Program-made: the position numbers and the translations under genes
Notes under the pieces: generated by a model
The model's input: the letters and a program-made list of their open reading frames with translations, nothing else
Databases searched by the model: none
What the model was told of the DNA's origin: nothing
Origin: Betaproteobacteria bacterium
GTDB taxonomy: Bacteria; Pseudomonadota; Gammaproteobacteria; Burkholderiales; Burkholderiaceae_C
Assembly: GCA_025358155.1 (NCBI GenBank)
Contig: JANYKR010000184.1
Coordinates: forward strand, 1 to 48,719
Direction: 5' to 3'
Length of the DNA: 48,719 nt
In this document: positions 1 through 18,421 of the stretch, piece by piece
Numbering within the stretch: the stretch's first letter is position 1
Layout of the letters: each line of letters opens with the position of its first letter

Positions 1-327
1 CAGACCGCGCCGCACGATGTCGGCCGGGTCGCGGGCGGTGATCTCCTCGCCTTTGAACATCACCGTGCCGCGGGTCGGGTCGAGCACGCCCGAGATGGTC
101 TTGAGGATCGTCGATTTGCCGGCGCCGTTGCTGCCCAGCACAGTGGCGATCTCGCCGCGCCGCACGCTCAGGCTGACCCCGCGGATCGCCTTGATCGGAC
201 CGTAGGCGCTCTCGACATTGGCCAGCGACAACAGGATGTCAGTGTTGCCACCCTGTTCGCTGGCGGCCCCGGCCAACGGCGCGGTCGGCGGTGTGGCCAG
301 CGGCTGGGCTGATGCAGCGCTGCTCAT
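1..327 (-). CDS. livF: Branched-chain amino acid ABC transporter ATP-binding protein LivF (3' end cut by window edge)
   Basis: Only the first 109 codons are in the window; the C-terminal half lies beyond base 1. The ATG at 327 overlaps the livG stop by four bases (ATGA), the usual coupling in liv operons. A variable N-terminal stretch of about 30 residues precedes the core, where a Walker A motif GSNGAGKST is followed by a Q-loop region typical of LivF. LivF is the second ATPase of the high-affinity branched-chain amino acid (or amide/urea-type) importer and would pair with LivG on the cytoplasmic face of LivH/LivM. Which substrate is carried cannot be told from the ATPase. No periplasmic binding protein gene is seen; it may lie beyond the window edge. 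Confidence 0.9.
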   Translation of the reverse strand, partial: MSSAASAQPLATPPTAPLAGAASEQGGNTDILLSLANVESAYGPIKAIRGVSLSVRRGEIATVLGSNGAGKSTILKTISGVLDPTRGTVMFKGEEITARDPADIVRRGL

Positions 328-2224: not shown

Positions 2225-2259
2225 GCCGTAGGTCTCAGTGCCCGCGCGGCCGCCCGGAG

Positions 2260-2313
2260 GTCACTGAGCGCCCCCAGCGGGAGGCAGCGAACGAAGTGAG
2301 CGTGGGGGCTGAC
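2260..2313. repeat. Imperfect palindromic (REP-like) hairpin between livH and livM
   Basis: The 93-base livH-livM gap contains GCCCCCA (2270-2276) facing TGGGGGC (2303-2309), flanked by GTCA (2260-2263) and TGAC (2310-2313). The loop holds a GCGAACGAAGTGAGC segment. This looks like the short palindromic intergenic repeats that recur in Burkholderiales genomes, though I see only one copy in this window. In the transcript it could form a stem that protects the upstream livH message or lowers livMGF expression. That role is an inference. Confidence 0.5.
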
Positions 2314-2317
2314 ATAG

Positions 2318-3193
2318 CTAAACTTTCTTGCGCAAGTTGCCGCCGAACAGGCCGTTGGGCTTGACCACCAGCATCACCAGCACCACCACGTAGGCGGCGA
2401 TGTCCTTGAAACCCTCAGGCAGGTAGAAGCCGGCAAAAGCCTCGACCAGGCCGATCACCAGGCCACCCACGATGGCCCCAGGCAGGCTGCCAAAACCGCC
2501 CACCACCGCTGCCGGAAACGCCTTGAGCCCGATGAACCCCATGTTGGCGTGCACAAAGGTGATCGGCGCCAGCAGCAAGCCGGCAAGTGCTGCCACCGCC
2601 GCCGACAAGCCCCAGACCAGACCGTTGATGCGCCGCACCGGGATACCCATGTAGTAGGCCGCCAGCTGGTTTTGCGATGCGGCCTGCATCGCTATGCCCA
2701 GCTTGCTGTAGCGAAACATCAGGTACAACCCGCCGCACAACACGGCCGTGACCGCGATGATGGCCACCTGCTCCAGGCTGATCACCGCGCCCGCGAGTTG
2801 GATCACCTCGCCTTTGTAGGGCACGGCCAGGGTGTGGGTCTCGGTGCCGATCTCGGGGATCATCGAGATCAATCCGCGTGCGGTGTAGCCCACGCCGATG
2901 GTCAACATCACGATGGTGAACTGCGGTTGGCCCATGATCGGCCGGATCACCAGGCGCTCCAGCACGATGCCGAACATGAACATGCCCACCACCGCCAATG
3001 GCGCGGCGAACCAGAAGGACAGGCCATAGGCCTTCATCAGCACCAGACCGGCAAAGGCGCCCAGCATCATCAACTCGCCCTGGGCAAAGTTGACCGTCTC
3101 GGTGGCCTTGTAGATCAGTACAAAGCCCAGCGCGATCAGCGCGTAAATGCAGCCGAGCGACACGCCTGAAATCAGCAGTTGCACAAAGGCCAA
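2318..3193 (-). CDS. livH: Branched-chain amino acid ABC transporter permease LivH
   Basis: A 291-residue permease with about eight hydrophobic segments. The N-terminal GVSLGCIYALIALGFVLIYK and NFAQGELMMLGAF motifs are diagnostic of LivH, and the VVGGFGSLPGAIVGG loop near residue 225 is the ATPase-coupling region. The start is TTG at 3193, supported by an AGGAG Shine-Dalgarno about seven bases upstream; no in-frame ATG fits the expected N-terminus. It is the first visible gene of the liv run. The 195 bases upstream (3194-3388) hold no gene I can support and presumably carry its promoter. It partners LivM in the inner membrane. Confidence 0.94.
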   Translation of the reverse strand: MAFVQLLISGVSLGCIYALIALGFVLIYKATETVNFAQGELMMLGAFAGLVLMKAYGLSFWFAAPLAVVGMFMFGIVLERLVIRPIMGQPQFTIVMLTIGVGYTARGLISMIPEIGTETHTLAVPYKGEVIQLAGAVISLEQVAIIAVTAVLCGGLYLMFRYSKLGIAMQAASQNQLAAYYMGIPVRRINGLVWGLSAAVAALAGLLLAPITFVHANMGFIGLKAFPAAVVGGFGSLPGAIVGGLVIGLVEAFAGFYLPEGFKDIAAYVVVLVMLVVKPNGLFGGNLRKKV

Positions 3194-3388: not shown

Positions 3389-3778
3389 TCAATCGCGCGA
3401 AAAGCTGACGATGGCGATACCCAAGGTGATCAGCACCGTGCCAAACCAGCGTTTGCCCTCAACCCGCTCCTTGAGTATGAATTTGCTCGACAGCGCAATA
3501 AATATGTAGTGCACGCTCGACAGACTGAAAGCGAAATTGAGTTCAGCATGCGACAGCACCACCGCCCAGATGCCCAGCACGCCGAGCCCCAACCACATGC
3601 CCACCCACACCCTGAACACAAACAACAGCCGCAACGACAGTGCCAACATCTCGCCAAATGTCTCGGACGGCATGTCGACTTTCTCGACTGCCGATTTGAA
3701 ACAGGTTTGAGCCGCGGTCTCCGCCAAGCTGATCAGTAAAATCAGAAGCAAAATTGACAAAACTGAATCAAGCGTCAT
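3389..3778 (-). CDS. Small four-TM EamA/SMR-like membrane protein, second of a pair
   Basis: A 129-residue protein with four predicted membrane helices (about residues 5-22, 45-70, 74-92 and 105-125). The end matches the DMT superfamily half-transporter pattern: a helix followed by KFILKERVEGKRWFGTVLITLGI. Its size resembles ArnF and single-domain EamA/SMR proteins, which work as dimers. Its start overlaps the stop of the preceding small membrane gene (ATGA at 3775-3778), so the two are probably made in fixed ratio and act as a heterodimer. Base composition is visibly AT-richer than the flanking liv and transglutaminase genes. The substrate is unknown; a lipid-linked or amphipathic molecule is one possibility because of the acyltransferase next door. 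Confidence 0.72.
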   Translation of the reverse strand: MTLDSVLSILLLILLISLAETAAQTCFKSAVEKVDMPSETFGEMLALSLRLLFVFRVWVGMWLGLGVLGIWAVVLSHAELNFAFSLSSVHYIFIALSSKFILKERVEGKRWFGTVLITLGIAIVSFSRD

Positions 3779-4194
3779 TTCACCGCCTCGCCTTCTTTCT
3801 CACTCATCGAGAGCATGGTGATCCCGGCGATGATGAAGGCGATGCCGAGCCAGCGTGTTCCGGGAACTGACTCTCCCAGAAAAATGACGGAGAGTATGGG
3901 TATGAGAATAAAGCTCAAACTTCCGAGCGGAAAGGCAATGCTCAGATCAATGCTCGACAGCACCGTCATCCAGACAATGAATGATGCGACCATGCCGGCA
4001 GCACCCAGCCAAAAGTAAGGCGATTCCGTCAGCGCAAGGGTTACGCCCCACAAGCCCGGCAGTGAAATTGCCTCCAAACCCACACCGGTCAGAATGGGTG
4101 CAAGCTTCTTGAGGGACAGCATGATGGCAAACTGGATGGCATCTGCCAGCAGCAGCAAAGCCACCACTTTGATTGTCAACCCTTTGATTCTCAT
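3775..4194 (-). CDS. Small four-TM EamA/SMR-like membrane protein, first of a pair
   Basis: A 139-residue protein starting at the ATG at 4194 (MRIKG), four bases after the stop of the upstream acyltransferase gene; a longer frame reaching 4242 would run into that gene and is less likely. Four hydrophobic helices are seen. The last two surround LGESVPGTRWLGIAFIIAGI, the EamA-family half-domain signature. It is a sequence relative of the next gene but not a close copy. Two overlapping genes of this size resemble ArnE/ArnF or paired SMR proteins, where two unlike half-transporters insert in opposite topology. Substrate not identifiable from sequence. Confidence 0.72.
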   Translation of the reverse strand: MRIKGLTIKVVALLLLADAIQFAIMLSLKKLAPILTGVGLEAISLPGLWGVTLALTESPYFWLGAAGMVASFIVWMTVLSSIDLSIAFPLGSLSFILIPILSVIFLGESVPGTRWLGIAFIIAGITMLSMSEKEGEAVK

Positions 4195-4198
4195 CGCG

Positions 4199-5296
4199 CT
4201 AAGGCCTTGCAAAAAATAAAGACAATCGGTTGACAAAACCATTGACCACTTTCGACATGTGGACCATCGGCAGCATGGTTGCGCCCAGCCGAGCCTTGAC
4301 CTGGTAGCCGCCCTGGTTCAACACATAAAACTTCTTCTGGTGCTCGATGCACCACTGTACATTTTCAAGCAAGCTGACGAAGTACAAATTGAATTTTCCG
4401 GCATACTCGTAGTCCATCCCGATGAACTTGTCCATCAATTCGTCGCCGCGGTCGAGGCACAAATTGAATCCGATCAGCCGTCTCGTATCCCCTAGCTTGA
4501 TCCAGTACAAAAAATAGATCGCCTGATCCGGCAAATATTTAACCTGATTCAGAAAAAAATCTTTGGTCAAGACGCCAAACTTCAAATTACTACGCTGCAG
4601 CGTGTTCAAATAAAGGGCATGAATCTCATCGATAAGGTGTTCGATTTCCGTTACTGTTTCTGTACTCACACCGCCCCGTGTCTGGACTTCCTTCAATTTT
4701 CGACGAAGATTTTTCCTGGTTTTCGGTGATAGTTTCGAGATGTAATCTTCAACGCCTTCGAATGCGATGGGCAGCGTGGTCATCGGAAGACCTTCACTTT
4801 TTGAATACCCAAGACTCAGCAGCGGCGCCAGTTGCTCAGCATCCGTGGCCATGACATCTTTAAGGGTAATCATGTGTACACCGTCCGCCCGGGCTTTTGC
4901 CAGCAGTGCACGGTCGAGTGCTGCAAAGAGATCAGGCCGAGTGCGGTGTTCAGGGTGGATGGCAATGACCGCCTTGTCCGATGTCAGCGCACCACAAAAA
5001 AGAGTCTTCACGACCAGAAATTTCGGCCACAGCCGCTGCACCCGTTGCAAAGCGCTTTGGCCCAGGCCTGCAAGCGCCAAGTCAAAATTGAAGTCGGCAA
5101 TGAAAACTGGCGCGATCAACACCACGGTATCAGCGTCCTGGATGACGAGATATGAAAATTCAAAACCTGAGATATTGGATTTTTCCTGGCTGAGATAAAA
5201 ATTGTATCCTTCAGCTGGATAAGTCCATATTGAATCCCACTGCTGCCTGGGGATGTCGACAATAGACGAAAATAGCGTGTGGCTATAATTGCTCAC
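4199..5296 (-). CDS. GNAT-fold acyltransferase of the FemAB/peptidoglycan-biosynthesis-like type
   Basis: A 365-residue protein. The C-terminal two thirds (about residues 160-350) carry the Acetyltransf_6/FemAB-like pattern: a basic stretch KTRKNLRRKLKE, then an ALYLNTLQRSNLKFG helix, a strand with LIGFNLCLDRGDEL, and a closing NQGGYQVKARLGA segment. Relatives transfer acyl or aminoacyl groups to cell-wall or carrier-linked acceptors. The start is GTG at 5296, preceded by GGAG seven bases upstream. It leads a three-gene unit with two 4-TM proteins. The gene is clearly AT-rich for this window (20 of 60 G/C in 4501-4560, 24 of 60 in 4681-4740), which suggests recent transfer. The exact acyl donor and acceptor are unknown. 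Confidence 0.75.
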   Translation of the reverse strand: MSNYSHTLFSSIVDIPRQQWDSIWTYPAEGYNFYLSQEKSNISGFEFSYLVIQDADTVVLIAPVFIADFNFDLALAGLGQSALQRVQRLWPKFLVVKTLFCGALTSDKAVIAIHPEHRTRPDLFAALDRALLAKARADGVHMITLKDVMATDAEQLAPLLSLGYSKSEGLPMTTLPIAFEGVEDYISKLSPKTRKNLRRKLKEVQTRGGVSTETVTEIEHLIDEIHALYLNTLQRSNLKFGVLTKDFFLNQVKYLPDQAIYFLYWIKLGDTRRLIGFNLCLDRGDELMDKFIGMDYEYAGKFNLYFVSLLENVQWCIEHQKKFYVLNQGGYQVKARLGATMLPMVHMSKVVNGFVNRLSLFFARP

Positions 5297-5420: not shown

Positions 5421-6440
5421 TCAGATCGGCGCTACCGTCACCGCCACACGCGGCGGTGCACTGCCGCCGCCGCGAATCACGCCGCGCAGTGGCGCCACGT
5501 CGGCATAGTCGCGGCCCCAGGCCAGGGTGACATGGTCCTGACCCACGGTCACGTCGTTGGTGGGGTCGAGTGCCACCCAGCCATACAGCGGGCACCACAC
5601 CGCCACCCACGCATGGCTGGCGTCGGCGCCAATGAGGCGGGGCTGGCCGGACGGCGGCTCGGTCAGCAGGTAGCCGCTAACGTAGCGGGCGGCCAGGCCG
5701 AGCGAACGCATCGCGCCGATCATCAGGTGCGCAAAATCCTGACAAACGCCCTGCCCCTTGGCCAGCGCCTGCAAGGCATTGGTGCTCACGTTGGTGGCCC
5801 GGGGATTGAACTCCATGCGCTGGTGAATCCGGCTCATCAGGGCCTGCGCTGCCTGCAGCAACGGGCGCTGGGGCTCGAACAGATCACGCGCATAGCGGGC
5901 CAGCAGCGCATCACAGGGAGAGAAATGGCTGGGCAGCACAAACTCCACGGCGTCGGGCTGGGTCAGGCCGGCGCGGTAGCGCAAGGCTTGTGCTGCGTCT
6001 TCCCAGGGTGGGCTGAGCCTGGCATCCAACAGCGGCGGCAGCGCGAGCCGGACCTGAAAACTGCTGGTCACCGTGAGTGAGTCATGCACCCGCGCATGGC
6101 TGAAGCCGTGCCGCCAGTTGCCAAACGCATCGCGGCTTTGCCCTACCGCGTCCTCAGGCTCGGGGTCGATCTGCAGCGCCCAGCCTGAGACTTGCTGCAT
6201 GGCCGTATCGCGCGGCCTGAGCCAGGCACTGTGGTGCGCTTCTTCAACCGGCCGGTCGTAGTCGTAACGGGTTTCGTGACACACCGAGAGTTGGCGCGAT
6301 CCGGGCAAAGCCAGCGCTTGCAGCGCGCCGGGTGCGGGGCCAGGGGACCTTGATTGAGAGGTGACTTGAGATGAAGGCGGCGCAAGCGGCCGCAGGGCGT
6401 GTGGGTCCGCGGCTGGCGGCGAGGTCTGGTCCGGGCTCAT
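5421..6440 (-). CDS. Transglutaminase-like cysteine enzyme (cluster gene 5)
   Basis: A 339-residue protein of the COG1305 type: an N-terminal bacterial transglutaminase-like domain (about residues 50-155, with HETRYDYDRPV) and a transglutaminase core. The triad is visible as Cys233 in GQGVCQDFAH, His276 in ADASHAW and Asp292 in ALDPTND. The ATG at 6440 overlaps the stop of the preceding gene (ATGA) and is preferred over the GTG six bases further upstream. Residues 1-45 are Pro/Ser-rich and probably disordered. Family members were predicted to act as peptidases or amide-bond enzymes in amidoligase clusters. It is the last gene of the run. The 124 bases downstream (5297-5420) hold nothing recognisable. 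Confidence 0.85.
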   Translation of the reverse strand: MSPDQTSPPAADPHALRPLAPPSSQVTSQSRSPGPAPGALQALALPGSRQLSVCHETRYDYDRPVEEAHHSAWLRPRDTAMQQVSGWALQIDPEPEDAVGQSRDAFGNWRHGFSHARVHDSLTVTSSFQVRLALPPLLDARLSPPWEDAAQALRYRAGLTQPDAVEFVLPSHFSPCDALLARYARDLFEPQRPLLQAAQALMSRIHQRMEFNPRATNVSTNALQALAKGQGVCQDFAHLMIGAMRSLGLAARYVSGYLLTEPPSGQPRLIGADASHAWVAVWCPLYGWVALDPTNDVTVGQDHVTLAWGRDYADVAPLRGVIRGGGSAPPRVAVTVAPI

Positions 6441-9079
6441 TGCCACACCCGCCGGTAGACCGAGCCGACATGCGCAAACAGGTGGCGGCCGATTTCATCG
6501 GAGAGCTTTCGGGTCTCGCTGCAGCATTGCTGCAAGGCGCTGATCAACAGGCTGTGACGGCCGGCTGCGTCGGTGCTGGCCAGGCGGGCAAAGGGCCACT
6601 CTTCGGGCGGGATCAACCCGGCCGTGACGGCAGTGGCCCACTGCGTGTCCTGCAGTGCGAGCTTGCGCAGGCGGTCGCGCAGGGTACGGGCCACCCAGGC
6701 CAATGAGCGCGGGTTGTCGGTGTCCATCACCAGCAGGTGCAACAGCGGCAACACCTCGCGCCGGGCCTGGAACTGGGCCCGGTAGGTGATCACGCTGTCG
6801 AACAGGTCGAGCAGCAGCTCGAAGCCGTCATCGGCCTCATGGACCCGGTGCTCAAAGCCCAGCGCCAGCGCGTGGGACAACATGTCCAGGCGCTCCACTT
6901 GCCGGCCAATGCTGAGCAAGCGCCAGCCGTCATCACGGGTCATGCGATCAGTCTGGGCACCGGTGATCGCGGCCAGCTGGGTGGTGGCACGCGCCAGCAC
7001 ACCCAAAACGTCGGCCGTCGGCGCATGGCTCTCGCCTTTGGCCAGCACGGCGGCGAGTTGCTGCTCAAAATGGCCGTCGACGTCCTGGATCAGCTTCCAG
7101 TGCTCGGGCGAGAGCCGCTCGCGCAGTGCCTTGGCGCATTCGCGGAGCCGGCACAGGCTGTGGCTGACACTGGTGGTCGAGTTGCTGCCGGCGCTCAGCC
7201 CCTGCACCAGCGCACGCTCGAACACCCGCAGCGACTTGAGCGGGCCGGGCACGCCGCGGGCGACCAGCCCATGAAAGTCGGCCAGCTCGCCGAGCAGGCG
7301 CAAGGCCGGCTCGCTGGCATCGTGCAAGTGCTCCAGCGTCACCCGAACCAGCCGCGCGGCGTTCTCGGCACGTTCGGTGTAACGACCCAGCCAGTACATG
7401 TTTTCAGCGGCCCGGCTGCTGACGCTGCGGTGCCAACCTATCAACTCGGCGGCAGTCAGCGGCTGCGGCAGCAGTGAGCTGTCATCCACCGCGCCACTGG
7501 CAATGACCCAGGTATCGACGCTGGCGCTACCGTTCTGCATGCTCAACCAGGGGTCTTGCGCGCTTCGGCCCGGGTCGCCGGGCCGGTCGCTGTCGCGCCC
7601 GGCCACGCGGGTCAGCGCGCCTGGCAGAACCCGCCAGCCACCTGCCCCGTCCGCCATCGCAAACACCCGTATCACTGCACTGCGCAGCAGCAATTGACCA
7701 TCGGACCAGACCGGTGTCGCGCTCGGCCGAACCCGGGCCTGCAGGCTGTAAGCGGCCGGGTCGGCGTCGATACGGACGACCAGCGCGGCGCGCTCGGCCG
7801 GGCTGAGATGGGCTGCAACCTGCGGGCTGAAGCCGCTGCCCGGAAAGGTAGGCAAGACCACAAACTCGCTCAGCCGCCCGCGCTGCGCGGCCCAGACCGC
7901 CGGCTCGCCGCACCACCAGCTGGTGGCGGCCGGCAGCCGCAAGGGCTCGCCCAGCAAGCGTTCGGCGATGCCGGGCAAAAATGCGGTCATGCCCGGGCTT
8001 TCCAGAAAACCGGCGCCCGGCGGGTTGGCCATCACCACCTCGCCGGCCCGCAGGGCCTGCAGCAGGCCGGGCACGCCCAGGGCCGAGTCGGGCCGCAGTT
8101 CAAGCGGATCGAGAAACTCGTCGTCCACCCGGCGCAACAGCACATGCACCTGCTCCAGGCCGTGCAAGGTCTTGAGGAACAAGCGGTTGCCCCGCACCGT
8201 CAGATCCGAACCCTCGACCAGCGTGATGCCGAGGTAACGGGCCAGAAACACCTGCTCGAAGTAGGTCTCGTTGAGCGGGCCGGGCGTCAGCAGCGCGATG
8301 CGGCTGCGCTCACCGGCCGGGCTGGCACGCATCAAGCCGTCCAGCAGCGAGCGGAAGCTGCCTGCCAGCCGCTGCACCCGCAGCGCGGCAAACTGGTCAT
8401 GGAACATCGGACCGATGATGAGCCGGTTCTCCAGCAAATAGCCCAGGCCAGAAGGTGCCTGCACCCGCTGGGCCAGCACCGAGTAACTGCCGTCGGCGCG
8501 GCGCTTCAAATCGAACGCGGCAAGGTGCAGCCGGGCTTGCCCGGTTTGCCCGGCTTGCCCAACTTGCCCAACCTGCCATAAGCCGCGGGCCGGCCGCAGG
8601 TACTGCGGATGGGCAAACACCATCGACGCCGGCAACAGCGCATCCCGCAGCAGGGTCTGCGGGCCGTAGGTGTCGGCCAGCACCAGCTCCATCAGCCGGG
8701 CACGCTGCACCACGCCGGCCTCGATGCGGGCCCAGTCGCTGGCGCTGATCAGGGTGGGCAGCAACTCCAGTGGCCAGGACCGAGCGCCGTCGTTGTGCTC
8801 GGCATAGACGTTGTAGGTGGCGCCGTCTTCGCGCACCCGGTGCTGCACCCGAGCCCGCCTCGCGGCCAGGTCGCTCCAACCCTCGCGCCCGAGTTGCTTG
8901 AAGAAGGTTTGCCACAGCGGCGACAGCCCGGACGACGAGGCGGCCGCGCCAGCGCCAGTGCCAGTGCCCGGCAAAGCGCGCAACTCGTCCCAGTGGCCGG
9001 GCGTGGCGCGGCGGGCTGCCGCCGAGGCCAGGCTGTCGCCATCGGGCAGGTCATCGTCGGCGAGCAGGCTGCTTTGCAT
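6437..9079 (-). CDS. Fused circularly permuted ATP-grasp / alpha-E protein (cluster gene 4)
   Basis: About 880 residues. The first ~540 form a circularly permuted ATP-grasp ligase (DUF404/DUF407 type): ENRLIIGPMF, LLTPGPLNETYFEQVFLA, LRRVDDEFLDPLELRPDS and the VDTWVIASG end are visible. The remaining ~320 are an alpha-E (DUF403) helical domain beginning SSRAAENMYWLGRYTERAEN. The neighbouring split genes at 13727-15217 and 12751-13707 encode the same two modules, so the cluster holds both versions. The start is uncertain: the ATG at 9079 is used here, but an in-frame TTG at 9115 would add 12 residues. A 9-base tandem repeat encodes repeated VGQ/AGQ units inside the ATP-grasp part. Predicted role: ATP-dependent amide-bond formation; substrate unknown. 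Confidence 0.85.
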   Translation of the reverse strand: MQSSLLADDDLPDGDSLASAAARRATPGHWDELRALPGTGTGAGAAASSSGLSPLWQTFFKQLGREGWSDLAARRARVQHRVREDGATYNVYAEHNDGARSWPLELLPTLISASDWARIEAGVVQRARLMELVLADTYGPQTLLRDALLPASMVFAHPQYLRPARGLWQVGQVGQAGQTGQARLHLAAFDLKRRADGSYSVLAQRVQAPSGLGYLLENRLIIGPMFHDQFAALRVQRLAGSFRSLLDGLMRASPAGERSRIALLTPGPLNETYFEQVFLARYLGITLVEGSDLTVRGNRLFLKTLHGLEQVHVLLRRVDDEFLDPLELRPDSALGVPGLLQALRAGEVVMANPPGAGFLESPGMTAFLPGIAERLLGEPLRLPAATSWWCGEPAVWAAQRGRLSEFVVLPTFPGSGFSPQVAAHLSPAERAALVVRIDADPAAYSLQARVRPSATPVWSDGQLLLRSAVIRVFAMADGAGGWRVLPGALTRVAGRDSDRPGDPGRSAQDPWLSMQNGSASVDTWVIASGAVDDSSLLPQPLTAAELIGWHRSVSSRAAENMYWLGRYTERAENAARLVRVTLEHLHDASEPALRLLGELADFHGLVARGVPGPLKSLRVFERALVQGLSAGSNSTTSVSHSLCRLRECAKALRERLSPEHWKLIQDVDGHFEQQLAAVLAKGESHAPTADVLGVLARATTQLAAITGAQTDRMTRDDGWRLLSIGRQVERLDMLSHALALGFEHRVHEADDGFELLLDLFDSVITYRAQFQARREVLPLLHLLVMDTDNPRSLAWVARTLRDRLRKLALQDTQWATAVTAGLIPPEEWPFARLASTDAAGRHSLLISALQQCCSETRKLSDEIGRHLFAHVGSVYRRVWQ
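8536..8580. repeat. Nine-base tandem repeat inside the fused ATP-grasp gene
   Basis: Five successive 9-base units on the plus strand (CTTGCCCGG, TTTGCCCGG, CTTGCCCAA twice, CCTGCCATA). On the coding strand they give a run of xGQ tripeptides (VGQVGQAGQTGQ). The unit length is a multiple of three, so copy-number changes keep the frame. It sits in a loop region of the ATP-grasp domain, not in a visible motif. Confidence 0.8.
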
Positions 9080-9145
9080 GGGGAGATCATGCCTTGCGGC
9101 GGGGGCCTCGAGCAACGGGCTCTTGCACTACAGGCGGCCGGTACG

Positions 9146-12100
9146 TCAAACCGTGCGCAAGTCCAGCGTGAACGGAAACTCCAGGCTGCGCCGAGGCTGG
9201 CCCACGGCCATCCGGCCCGGCGTGTGACCAATGGTGAAGAAGCGCGCCAGCCGCCGGCTCTCGGCCTCGAAGGCATTGATCGGGAAGCTGGCATAGCTCA
9301 GGCCACCCGGATGCGCGACGTGGTACTGGCAGCCACCCAGCGAGCGGCTCATCCAGCGGTCGACCAGATCGAAGGTCAGGGGCACGTCGGTGCCGATGCT
9401 CGGGTGCAGCGCGGTGGGCGGCAACCAGGCGCGGTAGCGCACGCCGCAGACGTACTCGCCGACCCGGCCGGTGGCTTGCAAAGGCACCGGCACGCCGTTG
9501 CAGGTGATGACATGGCGCGGGTGGATCAGGCCGGAGACCTTGAGCTCGATCCGCTCGACCGATGAATCGACATAGCGCACGGTGCCGGAGGACGAACCCT
9601 CTTCGCCCATCACATGCCAAGGCTCGAGGGCGCTGCGCAGCTGCAAGTGCACGCCTTCGGCCGTCAGCTCGCCGATCTTGGGAAAGCGAAACTCGAAGTG
9701 CGGTGCAAACCATTCGGCCTTGAAGTCGAAGCCGGCGCCTTGCATCACCTCGATCACATGCTCAAAGTCCTGCCAGACGAAGGTGGGCAGCAAGTAGCGG
9801 TCGTGCAGCTCGGTGCCCCAGCGCACCAGTTCGGCCCGGTAGGGTTCGCGCCAGAACCTGGCCACCAGCGCACGCAGCAGCAACTGCTGCACGATGCTCA
9901 TGCGGGCATGCGGCGGCATCTCGAAGGCGCGCAACTCCAGCAGGCCGAGGCGGCCGGTGGCGCTGTCGGGCGAATAGAGCTTGTCGATGCAGAACTCGCT
10001 GCGGTGGGTGTTGCCGGTCAGATCGACCAGGATGTTGCGCAGCGTGCGGTCCACCACCCAGGGCGGCATCGTTTGGCCATAGGCGGCCTGGCTTTTCTCG
10101 ATCTCGGCCAGCGCAATCTCCAGCTCGTAGAGCTGGTCGTTGCGGGCCTCGTCGATGCGCGGCGCCTGGCTGGTCGGGCCGATGAACAGGCCCGAGAACA
10201 AATAGCTCAGGGACGGGTGGTTGTGCCAGAAGGCCAGCAGGCTGCCCAGCACGTCGGGACGGCGCAAAAATGGCGAATCGGCCGGCCGGGCACCGCCCAT
10301 CACAAAGTGGTTGCCGCCGCCGGTACCGGTGTGGCGGCCGTCGAGCATGAACTTCTCGGATGACAGGCGCGATTTCCAGGCCGCGTCGTACAAAAACTCG
10401 GTGTGCTCGACCAGATCAGCCCAGTTGTGCGCCGGGTGGATGTTGACCTCGATCACGCCGGGGTCGGGGGTGACGGCCAGGATCTTGAGGCGCGGGTCGC
10501 GCGGCGGCGGGTAGCCCTCCAGCACCACCTTGACCTTTTGTGCGGCGGCGGTGGCCTCTACAGCGGCCAGCAGCTCCAGGTAGTCCTCCAGCTTTTCGAG
10601 CGGCGGCATGAAGACGTAGAGCACGCCCGTGGCCTTGCCCTGGTTCTCGGCCTTGGGGCCGTTGGCACGGCGCGGGTCACGCGCTTCGACCACCAGCGCA
10701 GTGCGGGTGATCCAGTGAGCAGACTCGAAAGGCGCCGGGGCGCGGTGGGCATCGACAGCCACCGCGCCGGCGGCTGATGCCGCCCGGTTGACCGCGAGGG
10801 TCGCTGTGGCGGCGCCAGCCGCAGACTTGCCCGCCAGGCCCTTGTCCGCCTCAAACCGCTTGGCCTGCAGCGACTCCGTGCCGCCCTCGGCAAAGCCGCC
10901 GCCGATCACATGGGCGGCGTACTGGCTGCGAATCGTGGCGGCAGCCGGCAGCGCGTCGCGCGGGGAAAACGGATCAGACTCGATGTGGTACGGGTAGTCG
11001 GTGGCCTTGACCCAGGGCAGCGCGTCCAGCGGCAGGCGCCAGCCCATCGGGGAATCACCCGGGTGCAAGTACATCCGGTCGTCTCGGAAGAACCAGGGCC
11101 CGGACTGCCAGTGCACGCCGGCTTTTGCGCTGGCATCGGCCTTCTTGATCGGCAAGGCGTAGCCCACCGGATGGTCGAGACCCTGGGTGAAGATGCGGCG
11201 CAGGCGGATGCGCTCGACCTCATCCTCGAGCTTGGCATCAAACGGGTCGACATTGACCGGCAGCCGGCGCTCGCGCCAGAGGTGGTACCAGGTGTCCTCA
11301 AAACCCACCTGCAGGTGCTCATCGCCAACGCCCAGGCGTTTGCTCAGGCCGCTGATGAAAGCCTTGGCATCGTCGGCGTTGTACTGGTGGTCGTCACGCT
11401 CGTCGGCAAACAGCGACGGGTCGTGCCAGCAGGGTTGACCGTCGTCGCGCCAGCAGATCGACAGCGCCCAGCGCGGCAGTTGCTCACCCGGGTACCACTT
11501 GCCCTGGCCGTAGTGCAAGAAGCCACCCTCACCGTAGTGCGCCCGCAGCCGGCCCACCAGGTCTTGCGCAAACTTGCGCTTGGTGGGGCCCAGTGCGTCG
11601 GTGTTCCATTCGGCACCGTCGCGGTCGTCCACCGCCACAAAGGTGGGCTCGCCGCCCATCGTCAAGCGCACATCATCGGCGTCGAGTTGCCCGTCCACTG
11701 CCGCGCCCAGCGCCAGCACCTCGGCCCATTGCGCTTCGGTGAAGGGCTTGGTGACGCGGGGTGACTCGAAGATCCGGGTCACACCCATGGCATGCTCGAA
11801 TTCGACCTCGCATTCGTCGGTGGCGCCGCTGACTGGCGCGGCGCTGCCGGGCGTTGGGGTGCAGGCGACCGGGATGTGGCCCTCGCCCGCCATCAAACCC
11901 GAGGTCGGGTCAAGCCCGATCCAGCCGGCGCCGGGCAAATACACCTCGCACCAGGCGTGCAGGTCGGTGAAATCGACCTCGGTGCCGCTGGGGCCGTCGA
12001 GCGCCTTCACATCGCTCTTGAGCTGGATCAGGTAGCCGGAGACAAAGCGGGCCGCCAGCCCGAGGTGGCGGAGGGCCTGCACCAGCAGCCAGCCGGTGTC

Positions 12101-12643
12101 GCGGCAGGAGCCCGACTTGAGCGTCAGCGTCTGCTCGGGGGTTTGCACCCCCGGCTCCATGCGGATCACGTAACCGATCAAGCCTTGCAGACGTTGGTTG
12201 ATGCCGACCAGAAAGTCGATGGTGCGGCGCTCGGTCAGGTCGATGCTGGCGACGAACTTGGCCAACTCGGGCGTGGCCGCCTCGGTCACCAGATAAGGCT
12301 GCAGTTCCAGCTTGAGCGCCTCGTCGTAGCTGAACGGGTAGGTCTCGGCCTCGGGCTCCAGGAAAAAGTCAAAGGGGTTGTAGACCGACATCTCGGCCAC
12401 CAGATCGACCGTGACTTTGAACTCGGTCATCGGCTCAGGGAAGACCAGCCGGGCCAGGTAGTTGGCAAAGGCATCTTGCTGCCAGTTGATGAAATGCTCG
12501 GCCGGCTCGATCTTGAGCGAGTAGCTCAGGATGTTGCTGCGGCAGTGCGGCGCGGGGCGCAGCCGCACGATATGCGGCCCCATCTTGACCGGCCGGTCGT
12601 ATTTGTAGTGGGTGACGTGGTTCAGTGCGACGTGTATGGACAC
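9146..12643 (-). CDS. Large transglutaminase-DUF2126 protein (cluster gene 3)
   Basis: About 1165 residues (COG1305 plus COG4196 layout). Residues 1-300 are a transglutaminase N-domain and core with Cys180 in [10 protein letters not shown], His229 in [11 protein letters not shown] and Asp245 in IGLDPTSG. From about residue 315 to the end is DUF2126, opening with [17 protein letters not shown] and including [20 protein letters not shown] and [19 protein letters not shown]. The start is GTG at 12643 with AGAAGGA seven bases upstream. It restores the family N-terminus [17 protein letters not shown]; the frame extends upstream to 12667 without support. An Ala-rich stretch near residue 620 looks like a linker or insertion. 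DUF2126 has no established activity; some motifs recall ATP/amine-ligase folds (inference). Confidence 0.88.
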
Positions 12644-12750
12644 GGGATTCCTTCTGGAGCAAAACAATGTTGCAGCGCTGAAATTACTCGTGGGTGGGCA
12701 CGAGATGCCGGCTCAGGCGCCGAGCCGCGCTGCGCAAACCCTGGGGCCGC

Positions 12751-13707
12751 TCAGTAGGGCACCAGGAAGTCGCGGCTGATGCCTGCACCTATGGCGTTGA
12801 CCCGGTCCAGAAACTGGGTCAAGAACGCATGCAGGCCGGTGGACAGGATCTCGTCAATGCGGCCGAACTGCAGATCACTGCGCAGCCGGCCCGCGCGGCG
12901 CCGGGTCTCGGCGCTTTGCTCGTTGGCCACCAGGTCGAGGTTGACCACCACCTCGTTCATGCAAGCCGCCAACGAGCGCGGCATGTCGGGCCGCAGCATC
13001 AGCAACTCGGCCACCTTGTCGGGCCGGATCACGTTGCGGTAGACCTTGCGGTAGATCTCGAAGGCGCTGACCGAGCGCAGGATCGCGCTCCAGTGATAGA
13101 AGTCGACCTCGGGGGCATCGTCGTCGGCCCAGGCGCCAAAGTAGTCGCCGGCCAACGCATGGAACTTCACGTCCAGCAAGCGGGCGGTGTTGTCGGCGCG
13201 CTCCAGGAAGGTGCCGATGCGGATGAAGTGCAGCGACTCGTCCTGCAACATCGTGCCCACCGACACCCCCCGGCTCAGGTGCGAGCGGAACTTGACCCAC
13301 TCGAACAAGGCCGCCGGGTCGCGCTCGAAGGTGTCGTCCTGCAGCATCCGGTTGAACTCCAGCCAGGTCTGGTTGGTCGTTTCCCAGAGTTCGGTGGTGA
13401 GCTTGCCACGCACCGCGCGGGCGTTTTCGCGCGCCGCCTCCAGGCAGGACAGGATGGCCGACGGGTTGCTGATGTCCCGAACCATGAACTGCATGACGTT
13501 GTCGGCGTTGACGGCGTCAAACTTCTTGCCAAAAGCCGCAGTCAGCTCGGAGATGCCGAGCAAGCCCGCCCAGCCTTGCTCGGCCCGGTCGGCCGACTGC
13601 GGCAGCAGCGAGGTCTGGTGGTTGACATCGAGCATTCGGGCGGTATTTTCCGCCCGCTCCATGTAGCGCGACATCCAAAAAAGGTGGTCAGCGGTTCTAG
13701 ACAGCAT
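12751..13707 (-). CDS. Alpha-E (DUF403) domain protein (cluster gene 2)
   Basis: A 318-residue all-helical protein of the COG2307 family. It begins MLSRTADHLFWMSRYMERAEN, the family's highly conserved opening, and an inner repeat (RIGTFLERADNTARLLDV near residue 168) shows the duplicated helical unit. Alpha-E proteins always accompany circularly permuted ATP-grasp ligases and were predicted to assist or extend their reaction. The gene lies 19 bases after the ATP-grasp gene and 107 bases before the DUF2126 gene. The same module is fused to an ATP-grasp in the protein at 6437-9079. Nothing looks truncated. Confidence 0.9.
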   Translation of the reverse strand: MLSRTADHLFWMSRYMERAENTARMLDVNHQTSLLPQSADRAEQGWAGLLGISELTAAFGKKFDAVNADNVMQFMVRDISNPSAILSCLEAARENARAVRGKLTTELWETTNQTWLEFNRMLQDDTFERDPAALFEWVKFRSHLSRGVSVGTMLQDESLHFIRIGTFLERADNTARLLDVKFHALAGDYFGAWADDDAPEVDFYHWSAILRSVSAFEIYRKVYRNVIRPDKVAELLMLRPDMPRSLAACMNEVVVNLDLVANEQSAETRRRAGRLRSDLQFGRIDEILSTGLHAFLTQFLDRVNAIGAGISRDFLVPY

Positions 13708-13726
13708 TTTTTGAGTTCTCCTCGAA

Positions 13727-15217
13727 TCAGCCTTGGCGCTGGGACATCGACGCCGGCTCCGCAGGCGGCGGCGGCTCGAGATCGCTCTCCAGCACCCAAG
13801 TGTCCTTGGTACCCCCGCCCTGGCTGCTGTTGACCACCAGCGAGCCCGCCTTGAGTGCCACCCGCGTCAGGCCGCCGGGCACGGTTTGAACGCTGTTGCC
13901 CGACAGCACAAACGGCCGCAGATCGATGTGGCGCGGCGCGATGCCGCTCTCGACAAAGGTCGGTGTGGTTGACAGCGCCAACGTGGGCTGGGCGATGTAG
14001 TTGCTGGGCCGCGCCAGCAGTTGCGCCCGGAAAGCCTCGATCTCGGCCTGGGTCGAAGCCGGGCCGACCAGCATGCCGTAACCGCCCGCACCGTGAACCT
14101 CCTTGACCACCAGCTCGCCCAGGTGGTCGAGCACGTACTTGAGGTCGTCGGCCTCGCGGCAAACATAGGTCGGCACGTTCTCGAGAATGGGTTTTTCACC
14201 CAGGTAGAACTCGATCATTTTGGGCACGTAGGGGTAGATCGACTTGTCGTCGGCCACGCCAGTGCCGATCGCATTGCACAGGCTGATGTTGCCCTTGCGG
14301 TAGACATCCAGCAGGCCGGCACAACCCAGCGTGCTGTCCGGTCTAAAGGCTTTGGGGTCCAGAAAGTCGTCATCCACCCGGCGGTACACCACATCGACCC
14401 GGCGCGGCCCCTGGGTGGTGCGCATGTACACAAAGTTGTCCTTGACGAACAAGTCCTGGCCCTCGACCAGCTCGATACCCATTTGCTGCGCCAGAAAAGC
14501 GTGCTCGAAGTAGGCGCTGTTGTACATGCCGGGCGTCAGCACCACTACCGTAGGCTCGTTGACCGAGGGCGGCGCTACTGCCCGCAAGGTTTCGAGCAGC
14601 AAGTCAGGGTAGTGGGCCACCGGGGCGATCCGGTGCTGGGCAAACAGCTCGGGGACCAGCCGCATCATCATCTTGCGGTTCTCGAGCATGTAGCTCACGC
14701 CGCTGGGAACGCGCAGGTTGTCCTCCAGCACGTAGTAGGTGCCGCTGCCGTCGGGCTGGGCGGCGCGCACGATGTCGATGCCCGCGATGTGCGAGTAAAT
14801 CTGGCCCGGCAAGTCCACGCCCATCATCTCGGGCCGGAACTGCGAGTTGTTCAGGATCTGATCCGCCGGCACGATGCCGGCCTTGAGGATCTCCTGGTCG
14901 TGGTAGACGTCGTGCAGAAAGCGGTTGAGTGCCGTGACCCGCTGGGCCAGGCCCTGCTGCATGCGCGCCCATTCATCGCTGGGGATGATTCTAGGGATCA
15001 GGTCAAACGGGATCAGCCGCTCGGTGCCGGCGCCGTCCTCGTCTTTGGCGCCGTAAACGGCAAAGGTGATACCCACCCGGCGGAAGATCATCTCCGCTTC
15101 GGCGCGCCGCGCCGACATCAGTGCGGACGGCTGCTGCCCAAGCCAGCGGTCAAAGCCGCTGTAGTGCGCCCTGACCTGGTCGGCGCTGATCTGCATTTCG
15201 TCAAAAGTGGGTGTCAT
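13727..15217 (-). CDS. Circularly permuted type 2 ATP-grasp protein (cluster gene 1)
   Basis: A 496-residue COG2308 protein. Visible family landmarks are DGAGTERLIPFDLIPRII near residue 65, EDNLRVPSGVSYMLENRKM near residue 195, VVLTPGMYNSAYFEHAFLA, YRRVDDDFLDPKAFRPDS, a Gly-rich VKEVHGAGGYGMLVGP element near residue 385, and the DLRPFVLSG/PGGLTRVAL end. These make up the permuted ATP-grasp fold used for ATP-dependent carboxylate-amine ligation. Its ATG (15217) overlaps the comEC stop by four bases. The downstream neighbours are alpha-E, transglutaminase-DUF2126, the fused ligase and a transglutaminase. Substrates are not known for this family. Confidence 0.9.
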   Translation of the reverse strand: MTPTFDEMQISADQVRAHYSGFDRWLGQQPSALMSARRAEAEMIFRRVGITFAVYGAKDEDGAGTERLIPFDLIPRIIPSDEWARMQQGLAQRVTALNRFLHDVYHDQEILKAGIVPADQILNNSQFRPEMMGVDLPGQIYSHIAGIDIVRAAQPDGSGTYYVLEDNLRVPSGVSYMLENRKMMMRLVPELFAQHRIAPVAHYPDLLLETLRAVAPPSVNEPTVVVLTPGMYNSAYFEHAFLAQQMGIELVEGQDLFVKDNFVYMRTTQGPRRVDVVYRRVDDDFLDPKAFRPDSTLGCAGLLDVYRKGNISLCNAIGTGVADDKSIYPYVPKMIEFYLGEKPILENVPTYVCREADDLKYVLDHLGELVVKEVHGAGGYGMLVGPASTQAEIEAFRAQLLARPSNYIAQPTLALSTTPTFVESGIAPRHIDLRPFVLSGNSVQTVPGGLTRVALKAGSLVVNSSQGGGTKDTWVLESDLEPPPPAEPASMSQRQG

Positions 15218-17823
15218 CGTGAAGGGGCTCCTGGCCCGTCAGGGTAAGCAACAATCGCACCACCAGTCGTCACGGCCAGTGCACCAGTCTCGGGCACAGT
15301 CCAATGCCAGTAGCGGCGACGCACATCACGGGTGCAACTCGCAGCGCCATCGTGCCACAGCCAGGCGCCGCAGCGGTCGCTGCGCACCACTTCAATGCCG
15401 CGGTCGGCATACCGCGCCATCACATCAGGCGCCGGATGGCCGTAGCGGCTGCGGTAGCCGGCTTGCACCACGGCGGTGCGTGGCGCCACCGCATCGAGAA
15501 ATTCAACGCTCGATGAGGTGCGGCTGCCGTGGTGGGGTACCAGCAACACGGTGCTGGCCAGCGGCGGGCCACTGCCCTCGCGCTGGCGCTGCAGCAGTGC
15601 AGCCTCTTGCGGCGCCTCAATGTCGCCGGTCAGCAGCGCGCTGCGGCCCTGGCTGTCGGCGATGCGCAGCACGCAGCTCAGCGCATTGCTCTTGCGCGCG
15701 GCTGCATGCTCTGCAGGAGTGGGGTGCAGCCACTCGAATGACACGCCGTCCCACTCCCAGCGCTGTCCGGCATCGCAGCGCGAATTCGGCAGCCGCAGCC
15801 GGTCGGCCTGAAGCAGCAGCGCATGGCCCGGCTCCAGTGAACTCTGCAGCGCCGCCACCGACGTGCCCGCCAGCAGGCTGGCAGCGCCACCGACATGGTC
15901 GTTGTCGCGGTGGCTGATCACCAGCAGATCGACCCGCCGCTCGCCCCTGGCCTGCAGCAGCGGCAACAGCACCCGCAGTCCGGCATCGTTGTCGCGGCTG
16001 TACTGCGGGCCGGTGTCATAGACCAGCAAATGGCGCTGGGTTCGCACCAGCACGGCCGTGCCCTGGCCGATGTCAGCCGCCAACAGATCAAACGCGCCAG
16101 CGGCCGGCCGCAACACCGGCGGCCACAACAAGGGCAAGACCAGGGGCAGCGCCAGCCCGCGCAGTGCCCAGGGTACGGGCAGCAAGCCGAGCACAGCACC
16201 CAGCAACCCGGCGGCCACCGCCCAGGCCGGTGCTGCTGGCGCCGGATAGACCGCGCCCGGCCACTGCGCCAGCCCTGCCAGGCCCCAGACTCCTGCCTGC
16301 ACCAGCGCGGCGGCCAGCGTCCAGGCCAGCGGTACCAGCATACCGAGCAGGGCCAGCGGCGTGATCACCAGCGTGACCAACGGTATCGCGATCAAGTTGG
16401 CCAGCCCCCCGACCACGCTGAGTTGCTGAAAGAACACCAGCGAGAGGGGTGCCAGTCCCAGCGTGGCCACGACCTGGCTGTGCAGGTGCCCGCGCAGGTG
16501 CGCTCGCCATCGACCCACCGCCGTGCTCGGGCCAACCACCGTGCCCGGGCCGGGCGTGGCCGTTTGCGGCGCGGCGGATTGCAGCGCGGCTGGCGCCGCG
16601 GCGTCGCCCGGCCCCGACACCATCAGCAAGCCCACAGCGGTGAACGACAGCCAGAACCCAGGCTGCAGCAAAGCCCAGGGGTCAAACAGCGTGACCGCCA
16701 CGGCCGCTGCCAGCAGCACCAGCGGCCAGGGCCAGCGCTGTCCCACACTGCGCAGCATGCCAGTGGTGACCAGCATGATCACGGTGCGTTGCGCCGGCAC
16801 ACCCCAGCCGGCCAGCATGGCGTAGGCGATGGCCAGTGCCAAGCCCAGCCAGCGGCCGGCCATCGGCGCCGGCAGCCAAAGCATCAACCGGTTGCTGCGC
16901 CGCCACAGCCGGGCCGCCAGCAAGCCGGCAGCCCACGCAAACATCGTCACATGGACCCCGCTGATGGACACCAAATGCGCTACCCCGGTCTTGCGGAAGA
17001 GGTCCCAATCCTCGCGCTCGATCGCCGCCTGGTCGCCCACCGCCAGCGCGGCCAGCACGCCGGCGGCACGCGGGTCGCTCACCTGGCGCAGGATGGCATC
17101 CCGCACGGCCTCGCGCAGCCGCTCCACCGGGTGGCTGACACCTCGATCCAGCAACTCGGCGCTCGCGCCGCCCTGCACTACCCGCACGTAGCCAGTGGCG
17201 CCTATGCCTTGCTCGAACCACATCAGCTCCACATCAAACCCATCCGGGTTGAGCGAGCCATGCGGCTGCTTGAGTCGCAGCGGCAAGCGCCAGCGCTGGC
17301 CCGCGCGCAGTGCGCTGCGGGCGTCGGCCAGCACCGCCTCGTCGTTGAAGTTGTTGTACCAGCCGAGCGACAGCAAGGCGGGCAACTTCAGCGGCACGGC
17401 CGCTGCGTCCGGCCTCATGCCCAGCCGCTCGGCCCGCTCCACCTCAAACTGAAAGCGCAGGCCTGCGGGCCCGTGTTGGGGCAGGCTGGCCACCACGCCG
17501 GTGACCAGCAGGTTCTGGCCCTCCAGCGCGGGCGCCAGGCGATCGGCCAGGCGTGCACCCGCACGCAGTGCCGTGGAGGCCATCGCCAGTCCAAACGCGG
17601 CGGCCATCAAAATGGCGATGTGCCGCCAGGCTGGCCAGCGCCAGGCCAGCAGCAGCACGGCGCCGCAGGCCGCCAGCAACCCGGCATCGGCCGCCGGCGG
17701 CCACAGCACCTGCTGTTGCAAATTGCAGCCCAGACCGGCCAGCCAGGCCAGCGCACACAGTGCCGCCCGCCACCCGGGGTCGAGCTTGCTTGCTGAGCCG
17801 CTCTGCTGGGCGCGTGCCGACAT
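15214..17823 (-). CDS. comEC: DNA internalization-related competence protein ComEC/Rec2
   Basis: An 869-residue inner-membrane protein with the full ComEC layout. An N-terminal membrane segment and OB-like DUF4131 region cover about residues 1-200. The Competence domain (about 235-530, multiple helices) opens with LAVGDQAAIEREDWDLFRKTGVAHL and HLVSISGVHVTMFAW. A C-terminal metallo-beta-lactamase-like domain (about 580-830) has SHRDNDHVGG, LTGDIEAPQE and LVPHHGSRTSSS. It is thought to form the channel that moves single-stranded DNA into the cytoplasm during transformation, with the lactamase domain degrading one strand. It ends in a 4-base overlap with the ATP-grasp gene, an unusual partner. 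The divergent ridA-like gene starts 142 bases away, so both promoters probably lie in 17824-17965. Confidence 0.92.
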   Translation of the reverse strand: MSARAQQSGSASKLDPGWRAALCALAWLAGLGCNLQQQVLWPPAADAGLLAACGAVLLLAWRWPAWRHIAILMAAAFGLAMASTALRAGARLADRLAPALEGQNLLVTGVVASLPQHGPAGLRFQFEVERAERLGMRPDAAAVPLKLPALLSLGWYNNFNDEAVLADARSALRAGQRWRLPLRLKQPHGSLNPDGFDVELMWFEQGIGATGYVRVVQGGASAELLDRGVSHPVERLREAVRDAILRQVSDPRAAGVLAALAVGDQAAIEREDWDLFRKTGVAHLVSISGVHVTMFAWAAGLLAARLWRRSNRLMLWLPAPMAGRWLGLALAIAYAMLAGWGVPAQRTVIMLVTTGMLRSVGQRWPWPLVLLAAAVAVTLFDPWALLQPGFWLSFTAVGLLMVSGPGDAAAPAALQSAAPQTATPGPGTVVGPSTAVGRWRAHLRGHLHSQVVATLGLAPLSLVFFQQLSVVGGLANLIAIPLVTLVITPLALLGMLVPLAWTLAAALVQAGVWGLAGLAQWPGAVYPAPAAPAWAVAAGLLGAVLGLLPVPWALRGLALPLVLPLLWPPVLRPAAGAFDLLAADIGQGTAVLVRTQRHLLVYDTGPQYSRDNDAGLRVLLPLLQARGERRVDLLVISHRDNDHVGGAASLLAGTSVAALQSSLEPGHALLLQADRLRLPNSRCDAGQRWEWDGVSFEWLHPTPAEHAAARKSNALSCVLRIADSQGRSALLTGDIEAPQEAALLQRQREGSGPPLASTVLLVPHHGSRTSSSVEFLDAVAPRTAVVQAGYRSRYGHPAPDVMARYADRGIEVVRSDRCGAWLWHDGAASCTRDVRRRYWHWTVPETGALAVTTGGAIVAYPDGPGAPSR

Positions 17824-17965: not shown

Positions 17966-18421
17966 ATGACCGTCTACGCCAAACTCACGCAACTCGGCAT
18001 CAGCCTGCCTCCGGTGGCCGTGCCGGCCGCTGCCTATGTGCCGTTTGTGCGCAGCGGCAAGCTGGTGTTCTTGTCCGGCCACATTGCCAAGCAGGACGGC
18101 AAACCCTGGGTGGGTCAGCTCGGCCTGACGATGGCCACCGCTGAAGGCAAGGCCGCCGCCCGTGCTGTGGCAATCGACCTGATCGGCACCTTGCACGCCG
18201 CCGTGGGCGACCTGAACCAGGTGGTGCGCATCGTCAAGCTGATGAGCCTGGTCAACAGCACTGCCAGCTTCACCGAGCAGCACCTGGTGACCAACGGCGC
18301 GTCCGAGCTGTTGGGCGAGGTGTTTGGCGCGGCCGGTCCGCACGCCCGCAGTGCGTTTGGCGTGGCCCAGATCCCGATGGGCGCTTGTGTCGAGATCGAG
18401 CTGATCGCGGAAATTCTGTGA
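17966..18421 (+). CDS. RidA family (YjgF/UK114-like) protein
   Basis: A 151-residue protein of the RidA superfamily, of the subfamily that opens KLTQLGISLPP and ends with a short hydrophobic strand (VEIELIAEIL). FVRSGKLVFLSGHIAKQDGK and LVNSTASFTEQHLVTNGASELL are typical landmarks, and HARSAFGVAQIPMGA carries the conserved Arg of the active pocket. RidA proteins form trimers that hydrolyse reactive enamine/imine intermediates from PLP enzymes; members of this subgroup may have other roles. Its stop overlaps the GTG of dsbB (GTGA), so the two are coupled. No close PLP enzyme neighbour is present. Confidence 0.88.
   Translation: MTVYAKLTQLGISLPPVAVPAAAYVPFVRSGKLVFLSGHIAKQDGKPWVGQLGLTMATAEGKAAARAVAIDLIGTLHAAVGDLNQVVRIVKLMSLVNSTASFTEQHLVTNGASELLGEVFGAAGPHARSAFGVAQIPMGACVEIELIAEIL

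Follow-up and report, generated by a model that had tools for sequence, protein, structure and literature searches.

An amidoligase/alpha-E/transglutaminase system was already predicted in 2009 (Iyer et al.), according to the papers that cite that work, and papers on its Anbu-associated form, as far as their available text goes, still report no substrate. In the accessible part of one such study, Anbu showed neither peptidase nor amidase activity and formed no complex with the operon proteins, and the ATP-grasp protein of Yersinia bercovieri released phosphate from ATP (PMC6376114). Here we analyse a five-gene cluster of this kind in a 48,719-nucleotide (nt) stretch of a Betaproteobacteria bacterium (assembly GCA_025358155.1, contig JANYKR010000184.1), referred to below as the window. 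On balance, and with some reserve, we read the cluster as one transcription unit controlled by sigma54, and probably by NtrC, that would be on under nitrogen limitation, with a non-catalytic fused ATP-grasp copy and with nitrogen scavenging or recycling as its net outcome.

Dependence on NtrC/sigma54 and nitrogen induction are published for relatives and, by analogy, may hold here. The portions of these reports available to us describe the Burkholderia cenocepacia H111 genes I35_5080-5083 (DUF404/407, DUF403, transglutaminase-like and large transglutaminase-like) as members of the NtrC/sigma54 regulon, with changes of -8.2, -9.4, -9.4 and -6.0 fold in an ntrC mutant and co-regulation with urease, nitrate reductase and transporter genes (PMC5491218). 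They also give log2 fold changes of 4.44 and 3.99 for Pseudomonas putida PP_2685 and PP_2688 on nitrate versus ammonium (PMC8050072), values under nitrogen limitation in three P. putida strains of 11 to 37 for PP_2686-2688 and 1.1 to 4.8 for PP_2685 (PMC7801951), and a tracking of these domains with urea-metabolism domains in marine metagenomes (PMC3597751).

In another B. cenocepacia strain (locus L216), the gene order is ATP-grasp, alpha-E, transglutaminase, a transglutaminase fused to DUF2126 (TG-DUF2126), a fused ATP-grasp-alpha-E protein and a transglutaminase, and one sigma54 element with at most one mismatch lies about 90 nt before the ATP-grasp match. Judged by the gene descriptions, L216 would correspond to I35_5080-83. 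A first-pass annotation of the window had put the cluster forward as an undescribed system. That claim is not supported, given at least 588 related loci, the prediction reported by citing papers, and the fit of this locus of similar order to the NtrC regulon in the consulted part of its report; the system is widespread and of the kind predicted in 2009, not categorically new.

A conserved promoter element ahead of a five-gene cluster

The cluster (5421-15217) comprises five minus-strand open reading frames (ORFs; Table 1), and their coordinates and Pfam matches bear out the initial description of tightly spaced one-strand genes with the named domains. Gaps of 19, 107 and 66 nt separate the first four genes, the overlap of the last two is 4 or 10 nt according to which start is assigned to the last gene, and the first gene shares 4 nt with comEC. 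Pfam scores of all five proteins far exceed the curated cut-offs; the same proteins have no NCBIfam match at E<=0.001. The family assignments support the annotated nature of the set as amide-bond ligases and amidases, Iyer-type sets being presumably those labelled COG2308/COG2307/COG1305/COG4196. An alpha-E domain and a Cys-His-Asp transglutaminase occur together in the cluster, one of the features expected of an Iyer-2009-type system. In the same-genus locus L204 the gene order is identical.

To collect related loci, the DUF2126 protein was searched against genome contigs, and the best 80, mostly Burkholderiales by title, were kept; we also used a phylum sample of 200 genomes and a family sample of 120. 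A first sigma54 scan of a few single loci showed little, and it was the comparative scan that gave a signal. We counted the distinct regions in which the 200 nt ahead of a gene hold a -24/-12 element with no more than two mismatches: 82 of 101 do so for the ATP-grasp gene and 71 of 113 for TG-DUF2126. The corresponding controls were 7.1 and 8.1 in dinucleotide shuffles, 11 and 18 on the antisense strand, and 9.6 and 8.2 in random windows of the same loci. Counts before other genes were 0/99 for alpha-E, 4/71 for the fused gene, 2/17 for ComEC and 1/30 for HslV, and mildly raised for the last transglutaminase (12/81 versus 3.4 expected). Loci without an adjacent comEC carry the element in 27 of 30 cases before the ATP-grasp gene and 19 of 34 before TG-DUF2126, so the signal is independent of comEC coding. 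The conserved -24/-12 element expected of the sigma54/NtrC regulon is present, and strong in Burkholderiales-type loci; the ATP-grasp gene is preceded by one in L211, L174, L176, L202 and L204, among others.

The presence of a separate site before TG-DUF2126 varies with gene arrangement. Such a site is found when the gene diverges from comEC (41/41), follows comEC on the same strand (6/6) or diverges from the ATP-grasp gene (5/6), and in only 2 of 16 cases when it follows alpha-E on one strand, as it does in the window; counts were 0/2 after Anbu, 0/1 after a transglutaminase, 0/1 when divergent from the fused gene and 17/40 in other contexts. The window fits this pattern, with a single element at 15248-15262 and none before TG-DUF2126. 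Of the 101 regions upstream of the ATP-grasp gene, 64 have NtrC-like sites within 300 nt, where mononucleotide shuffles would predict 27.9.

One intact and one probably inactive ATP-grasp

The cluster encodes two circularly permuted ATP-grasp domains, as annotated, although they do not stand as equivalent ligases. The standalone copy has intact putative active-site residues and aligns with PDB 3n6x over nearly its full length (E 3.1e-220). Among 91 standalone relatives (61 from the best-80 loci and 30 from the genome samples), E165, N167, K372 and D432 are kept in all 91 and K471 in 90, with one gap; these are residues that we take to belong to the active site. The 93 fused relatives (75 and 18 from the same sources) have E at position 165 in none and, at position 167, N in none and R in 92. 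Equivalents of K372 occur in 53 of them, of D432 in none and of K471 in none (14 gaps). Both counts omit the genome's own copies; with these entered two and three times, the alignments hold 93 standalone and 96 fused rows. In the window's fused copy the putative metal-site E and N are gone and L stands at the K372 position; this copy still aligns with 3n6x (E 4.8e-65), but without E and N, and it has neither the metal-site E-x-N nor the lysine and G-rich loop of an ATP-grasp enzyme. We presume the E-x-N pair to be the metal ligands in glutathione and glutathionylspermidine synthetases. R434 is found in standalone and fused copies alike; the latter have a scattered G-rich loop.

Other positions, such as R217, E283, E372 and W400-W401-C402-G403, are nearly invariant and peculiar to the fused copies, which argues for selection rather than decay. 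An AlphaFold2 model of the fused protein, built from 28 sequences, reached a predicted local distance difference test score (pLDDT) of 84, and Foldseek matched it to 3n6x (E 1.2e-27) and also to glutathione synthetases, with the ATP-grasp fold retained. In a quick tree of 81 rows, standalone and fused copies form the two sides of one branch, with support of 100 in the Shimodaira-Hasegawa-like approximate likelihood ratio test (SH-aLRT). Judged by these residues, the two ATP-grasps of the cluster are not equivalent, and the likeliest reading of the fused one is a conserved pseudo-ligase, probably catalytically dead. Loss of ATP-grasp catalytic residues had been named beforehand as evidence that would count against the first-pass proposal, and alignment finds it in one of the two copies. 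Among the papers listed by a literature search, Iyer et al. 2009 lying outside its coverage, no title or opening line of an abstract mentioned an inactive fused copy.

Transglutaminase sites and the DUF2126 domain

Both transglutaminase triads were annotated as complete, and alignments confirm this. In TG-DUF2126, C180/H229/D245 is invariant across 33 aligned sequences, and in the last gene C235/H278/D294, numbered from GTG 6446 (C233/H276/D292 in the initial numbering), are each kept at 97% or more of 82 rows. The two Glu-Arg pairs of the standalone alpha-E protein (Table 1) are likewise kept at 97% or more of 98 aligned rows. An AlphaFold2 model of TG-DUF2126 has a pLDDT of 72.7, and its transglutaminase half matches 3isr.

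DUF2126 is a predicted ligase by its Pfam name and by weak glutamine-synthetase matches. Fold, Pfam and profile comparisons all left a glutamine-synthetase nature of the domain short of significance; unrelated proteins such as diphtheria toxin appear in the fold search at similar E, with probabilities of 0.1 or less. Within the set of papers covered by a literature search, none mentioned DUF2126 or COG4196.

Two separable modules

The system divides into module A (ATP-grasp and alpha-E) and module B (TG-DUF2126, the fused ATP-grasp-alpha-E gene and a transglutaminase). Module A leads the Anbu operon in L173, L179, L180 and L181, and follows comEC without transglutaminase or Anbu in L174 and L176, while module B forms a second unit elsewhere, often divergent. 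In P. putida the published nitrogen induction concerns module A. In L206-L209 Anbu adjoins TG-DUF2126. At the window locus, ATP-grasp and alpha-E, the genes that open the classical Anbu operon, are joined to the entire module B; comEC is adjacent in many relatives but not in all.

Within the best 80 of at least 588 loci, the fused gene lies less than 2 kb downstream of TG-DUF2126 in 76; it is 8 kb off in L024, and L035, L053 and L066 have no match. DUF2126 occurs in 63 genomes of the phylum sample and PF04174 in 113. All 63 DUF2126 genomes carry PF04174, and two or more matches are found in 59 of the 63 versus 5 of the 137 others (Fisher p 1.3e-39). In the genome under study PF04174 and PF08379 each occur in two places, both within the cluster.

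Some variants stood out among the relatives. Genomes G249 (contig C38) and G262 (contig C39) encode, besides the normal copy, a second DUF2126 protein that is divergent and shorter, at about 750 residues, and may represent a paralogue family. Genomes G194 and G197 have two PF04174 matches without DUF2126, the second of G194 scoring like a fused copy. In Caballeronia sp. Lep1P3 (L217, 12474-13157) TG-DUF2126 is intact, but all that matches the fused gene after it is two short stretches, so the fused gene may be broken.

Anbu elsewhere in the genome

The first-pass annotation described the cluster as lacking Anbu. This stands for the neighbourhood, as no Anbu lies at the locus, but not for the genome. 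A whole-genome search, proposed with that annotation, with a profile built on the four Anbu proteins of L173, L179, L180 and L181 found an Anbu gene on contig C304 (E 9.3e-113). The protein starts MTYC and has D18 and K33; its T, D and K fit the positions Thr1, Asp17 and Lys32(33) in the consulted part of the published account (PMC6376114). Misbinning is unlikely, as three stretches of C304 are 83-88% identical to locus L203 of the same genus. Judging Anbu absence by PF00227 (Proteasome) proved an invalid test: in this genome it gives one match, HslV beside HslU, and misses the Anbu gene, and in genome G091 it again gives only one match, although direct reading shows an Anbu gene there. No third Bact_transglu_N (PF08379) gene was found in the genome, so no transglutaminase of a classical Anbu operon was found here.

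The further idea, that the cell in which the set acts lacks Anbu, is not supported either, since this genome has Anbu, as do 73 of the 80 DUF2126 genomes in the family sample (Anbu in 98 of 120). In a weaker form, the set may be able to work without Anbu: 28 of the 63 DUF2126 genomes in the phylum sample have no Anbu match at E<=1e-30, a threshold that defines absence in a sample with some incomplete genomes, and none of 15 Anbu genes lying apart from the cluster has a sigma54 site, although for 9 of these only about 1.5 kb on each side was examined. Overall, none of 26 Anbu genes has an upstream sigma54 element. Comparing neighbourhoods, the other check put forward at the outset, placed Anbu beside TG-DUF2126 in L206-L209; it lies within 5 kb of the standalone ATP-grasp gene in at least 13 of the 98 Anbu genomes of the family sample. 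Encoded elsewhere and without its own sigma54 site, Anbu would be at most a loosely coupled partner.

A model for the cluster and its alternatives

We infer a single transcript, and its chemistry, partners and role, along the following lines. Modules A and B, which many relatives keep as separate units, would be joined here into one operon, which sigma54 and probably NtrC would turn on at nitrogen limitation. The standalone ATP-grasp would form an acyl phosphate and couple a carboxylate to an amine, with alpha-E as its partner. The fused protein, its fold kept and its metal site no longer intact, may be a subunit of the DUF2126 module that binds substrate or acts as a scaffold without catalysing a reaction; DUF2126 itself would be a second ligase. 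The two Cys-His-Asp sites would hydrolyse or transfer amides. Most likely, in our view, the net effect is that organic nitrogen is scavenged or recycled through conjugation and subsequent amide cleavage. More tentatively, we can picture a two-module amide ligase/amidase machinery that conjugates and releases organic nitrogen during nitrogen starvation. Its DUF2126 enzyme would rely on a dedicated pseudo-ATP-grasp that split off long ago and has a remodelled pocket (Asn to Arg at the metal site, invariant WWCG), and Anbu would have left the operon. With this analysis the locus gains a testable condition (nitrogen limitation via sigma54), separable modules, and a division of labour in which one ATP-grasp is likely active and the other likely inactive.

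Several observations weigh against this interpretation. The window has 49 sites on both strands like its own two-mismatch element, so the case for that element, which would lack significance by itself, rests on relatives, and these are often close kin with non-independent upstream regions. The signal before the ATP-grasp gene is weaker in sampled loci (22/37) than in the best-80 loci (60/64). No sigma54 element lies within 200 nt before the ATP-grasp gene in the classical Anbu operons L173, L179, L180 and L181, or in L184 and L207-L210, and NtrC-like sites are not enriched upstream of TG-DUF2126 (37/113 versus 30 expected). Fold matches of DUF2126 to glutamine synthetase are weak (E 0.09 or worse, best probability 0.82), the profile comparison gave one 69-column match (E 0.067, probability 0.8%), and no glutamine-synthetase family is among the Pfam matches of the domain. 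The tree program warned of long branches meeting at the fused/standalone split. Loss of nucleotide binding may be non-uniform across the fused copies, given the K372-equivalent lysine in 53 of 93, and the alignment around that loop is uncertain.

Other explanations fit parts of the data. The operon might produce a small peptide or amide metabolite for secretion or storage, as in the Iyer-type proposal, with the transglutaminases trimming or releasing the product and nitrogen control setting only the timing. Ligase and amidase families do share one cluster, and the solved structures that come nearest in fold to the fused protein are small-peptide or amide ligases, in fact or by name (3n6x, glutathione synthetases, YgiC/YjfC, glutathionylspermidine synthetase and Cp1B). 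We nonetheless find this doubtful: we noticed no precursor-peptide gene beside the cluster, without a systematic search, and the co-regulation of the matching B. cenocepacia genes with urease, nitrate reductase and transporters, in the part of that report at hand, argues for assimilation rather than a specialty product. It is also unlikely that the fused ATP-grasp, through a remodelled nucleotide site, is a genuine enzyme and no pseudoenzyme. Its own near-invariant residues and the lysine in 53 of 93 relatives would suit such an enzyme, yet the putative metal-site E and N are lost in all 93 and equivalents of D432 and K471 occur in none (14 gaps at 471).

Protein tagging, in which the ligases attach a tag, the transglutaminases edit it, and Anbu, encoded elsewhere, degrades the tagged proteins to recycle nitrogen, strikes us as improbable. 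It draws on the presence of Anbu in the genome, on its position beside TG-DUF2126 in L206-L209, and on the phylum sample, where 67 of 68 genomes with Anbu at E<=1e-30 also carry ATP-grasp. It is at odds with the DUF2126 genomes lacking an Anbu match, with the missing sigma54 sites at Anbu genes apart from the cluster, and with the absence of peptidase activity and of a complex with operon proteins in the available part of the published tests (PMC6376114). Chance clustering of unrelated genes, for which we found no support, is excluded for practical purposes by the neighbourhood and co-occurrence counts given above.

Feature coordinates and neighbouring genes

Table 1. Features of the cluster and its surroundings (window positions unless a locus is named)
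Feature	Position	Strand	Evidence and remarks
Standalone circularly permuted ATP-grasp, likely active amide ligase (predicted)	13727..15217	-	PF14403 558 bits, PF04174 524 bits (CP_ATPgrasp_2/1)
Standalone alpha-E protein	12751..13707	-	PF04168 326 bits; E17-R18 and E169-R170
TG-DUF2126, transglutaminase domain fused to DUF2126 (predicted second amidoligase)	9146..12643	-	PF08379 (Bact_transglu_N), PF01841 (Transglut_core) and PF09899 (DUF2126, 1326 bits)
Fused pseudo-ATP-grasp and alpha-E	6437..9079	-	PF14403/PF04174/PF04168 at 426/287/202 bits; longest ORF from TTG 9115
Last gene, standalone transglutaminase-like protein of the DUF2126 module	5421..6440	-	PF08379 and PF01841; alternative start GTG 6446
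Sigma54-type -24/-12 element TGGTGCGATTGTTGC	15248..15262	-	45 nt upstream of first gene, inside comEC 3' end; two mismatches to TGGCACN5TTGC
NtrC-like dyad GCACCCGTGATGTGC	15321..15335	-	58 nt upstream of sigma54 element
comEC, context gene outside the system	15214..17823	-	ComEC_Rec2 314.8 bits
Orphan Anbu, intact open frame	L198 (contig C304) 6064-6927		Downstream of an enoyl-CoA-hydratase-like ORF (named by eye)

Two kinds of neighbour were considered as parts of the system and set aside. The FemAB-like neighbour (4199-5296) is the best match of no listed ORF in the 80 loci. LIV/Urt-like ATP-binding cassette transporter genes lie downstream of the cluster (324-3193, minus strand), and permeases are also cluster-adjacent in L004 and L204; as a system part, the transporter scores below the urea-transporter cut-offs and lies beside the genes in L004, L202 and L204 only. 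An EamA-like transporter (3389-4242, minus strand) is split across two overlapping ORFs, possibly by a frameshift or as two short halves. Directly upstream of comEC and in opposite orientation is a YjgF/RidA-like gene (17966-18421, plus strand), overlapped by a minus-strand ORF without a family.

Comparison with known systems

The cluster shares its domain set and predicted amide-bond chemistry with the amidoligase systems of Iyer et al. 2009, as citing papers describe them, and its standalone ATP-grasp resembles Methylobacillus flagellatus Mfla_0391 (PDB 3n6x), deposited as a putative glutathionylspermidine synthase. With the Anbu operon (ATP-grasp, alpha-E, transglutaminase and Anbu; PP_2685-2688 in P. 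putida, and Y. bercovieri) it has the order of ATP-grasp and alpha-E in common. It differs in that the DUF2126 module is attached, Anbu is on another contig and the Anbu-operon transglutaminase is not at the locus; unlike the window, the four classical Anbu operons have no sigma54 element within 200 nt before the ATP-grasp gene. The B. cenocepacia genes I35_5080-5083, viewed through L216, share with the window a single sigma54 site followed by same-strand genes for ATP-grasp, alpha-E and TG-DUF2126, and differ by an additional transglutaminase between alpha-E and TG-DUF2126. Both loci end with the fused ATP-grasp-alpha-E gene followed by a transglutaminase.

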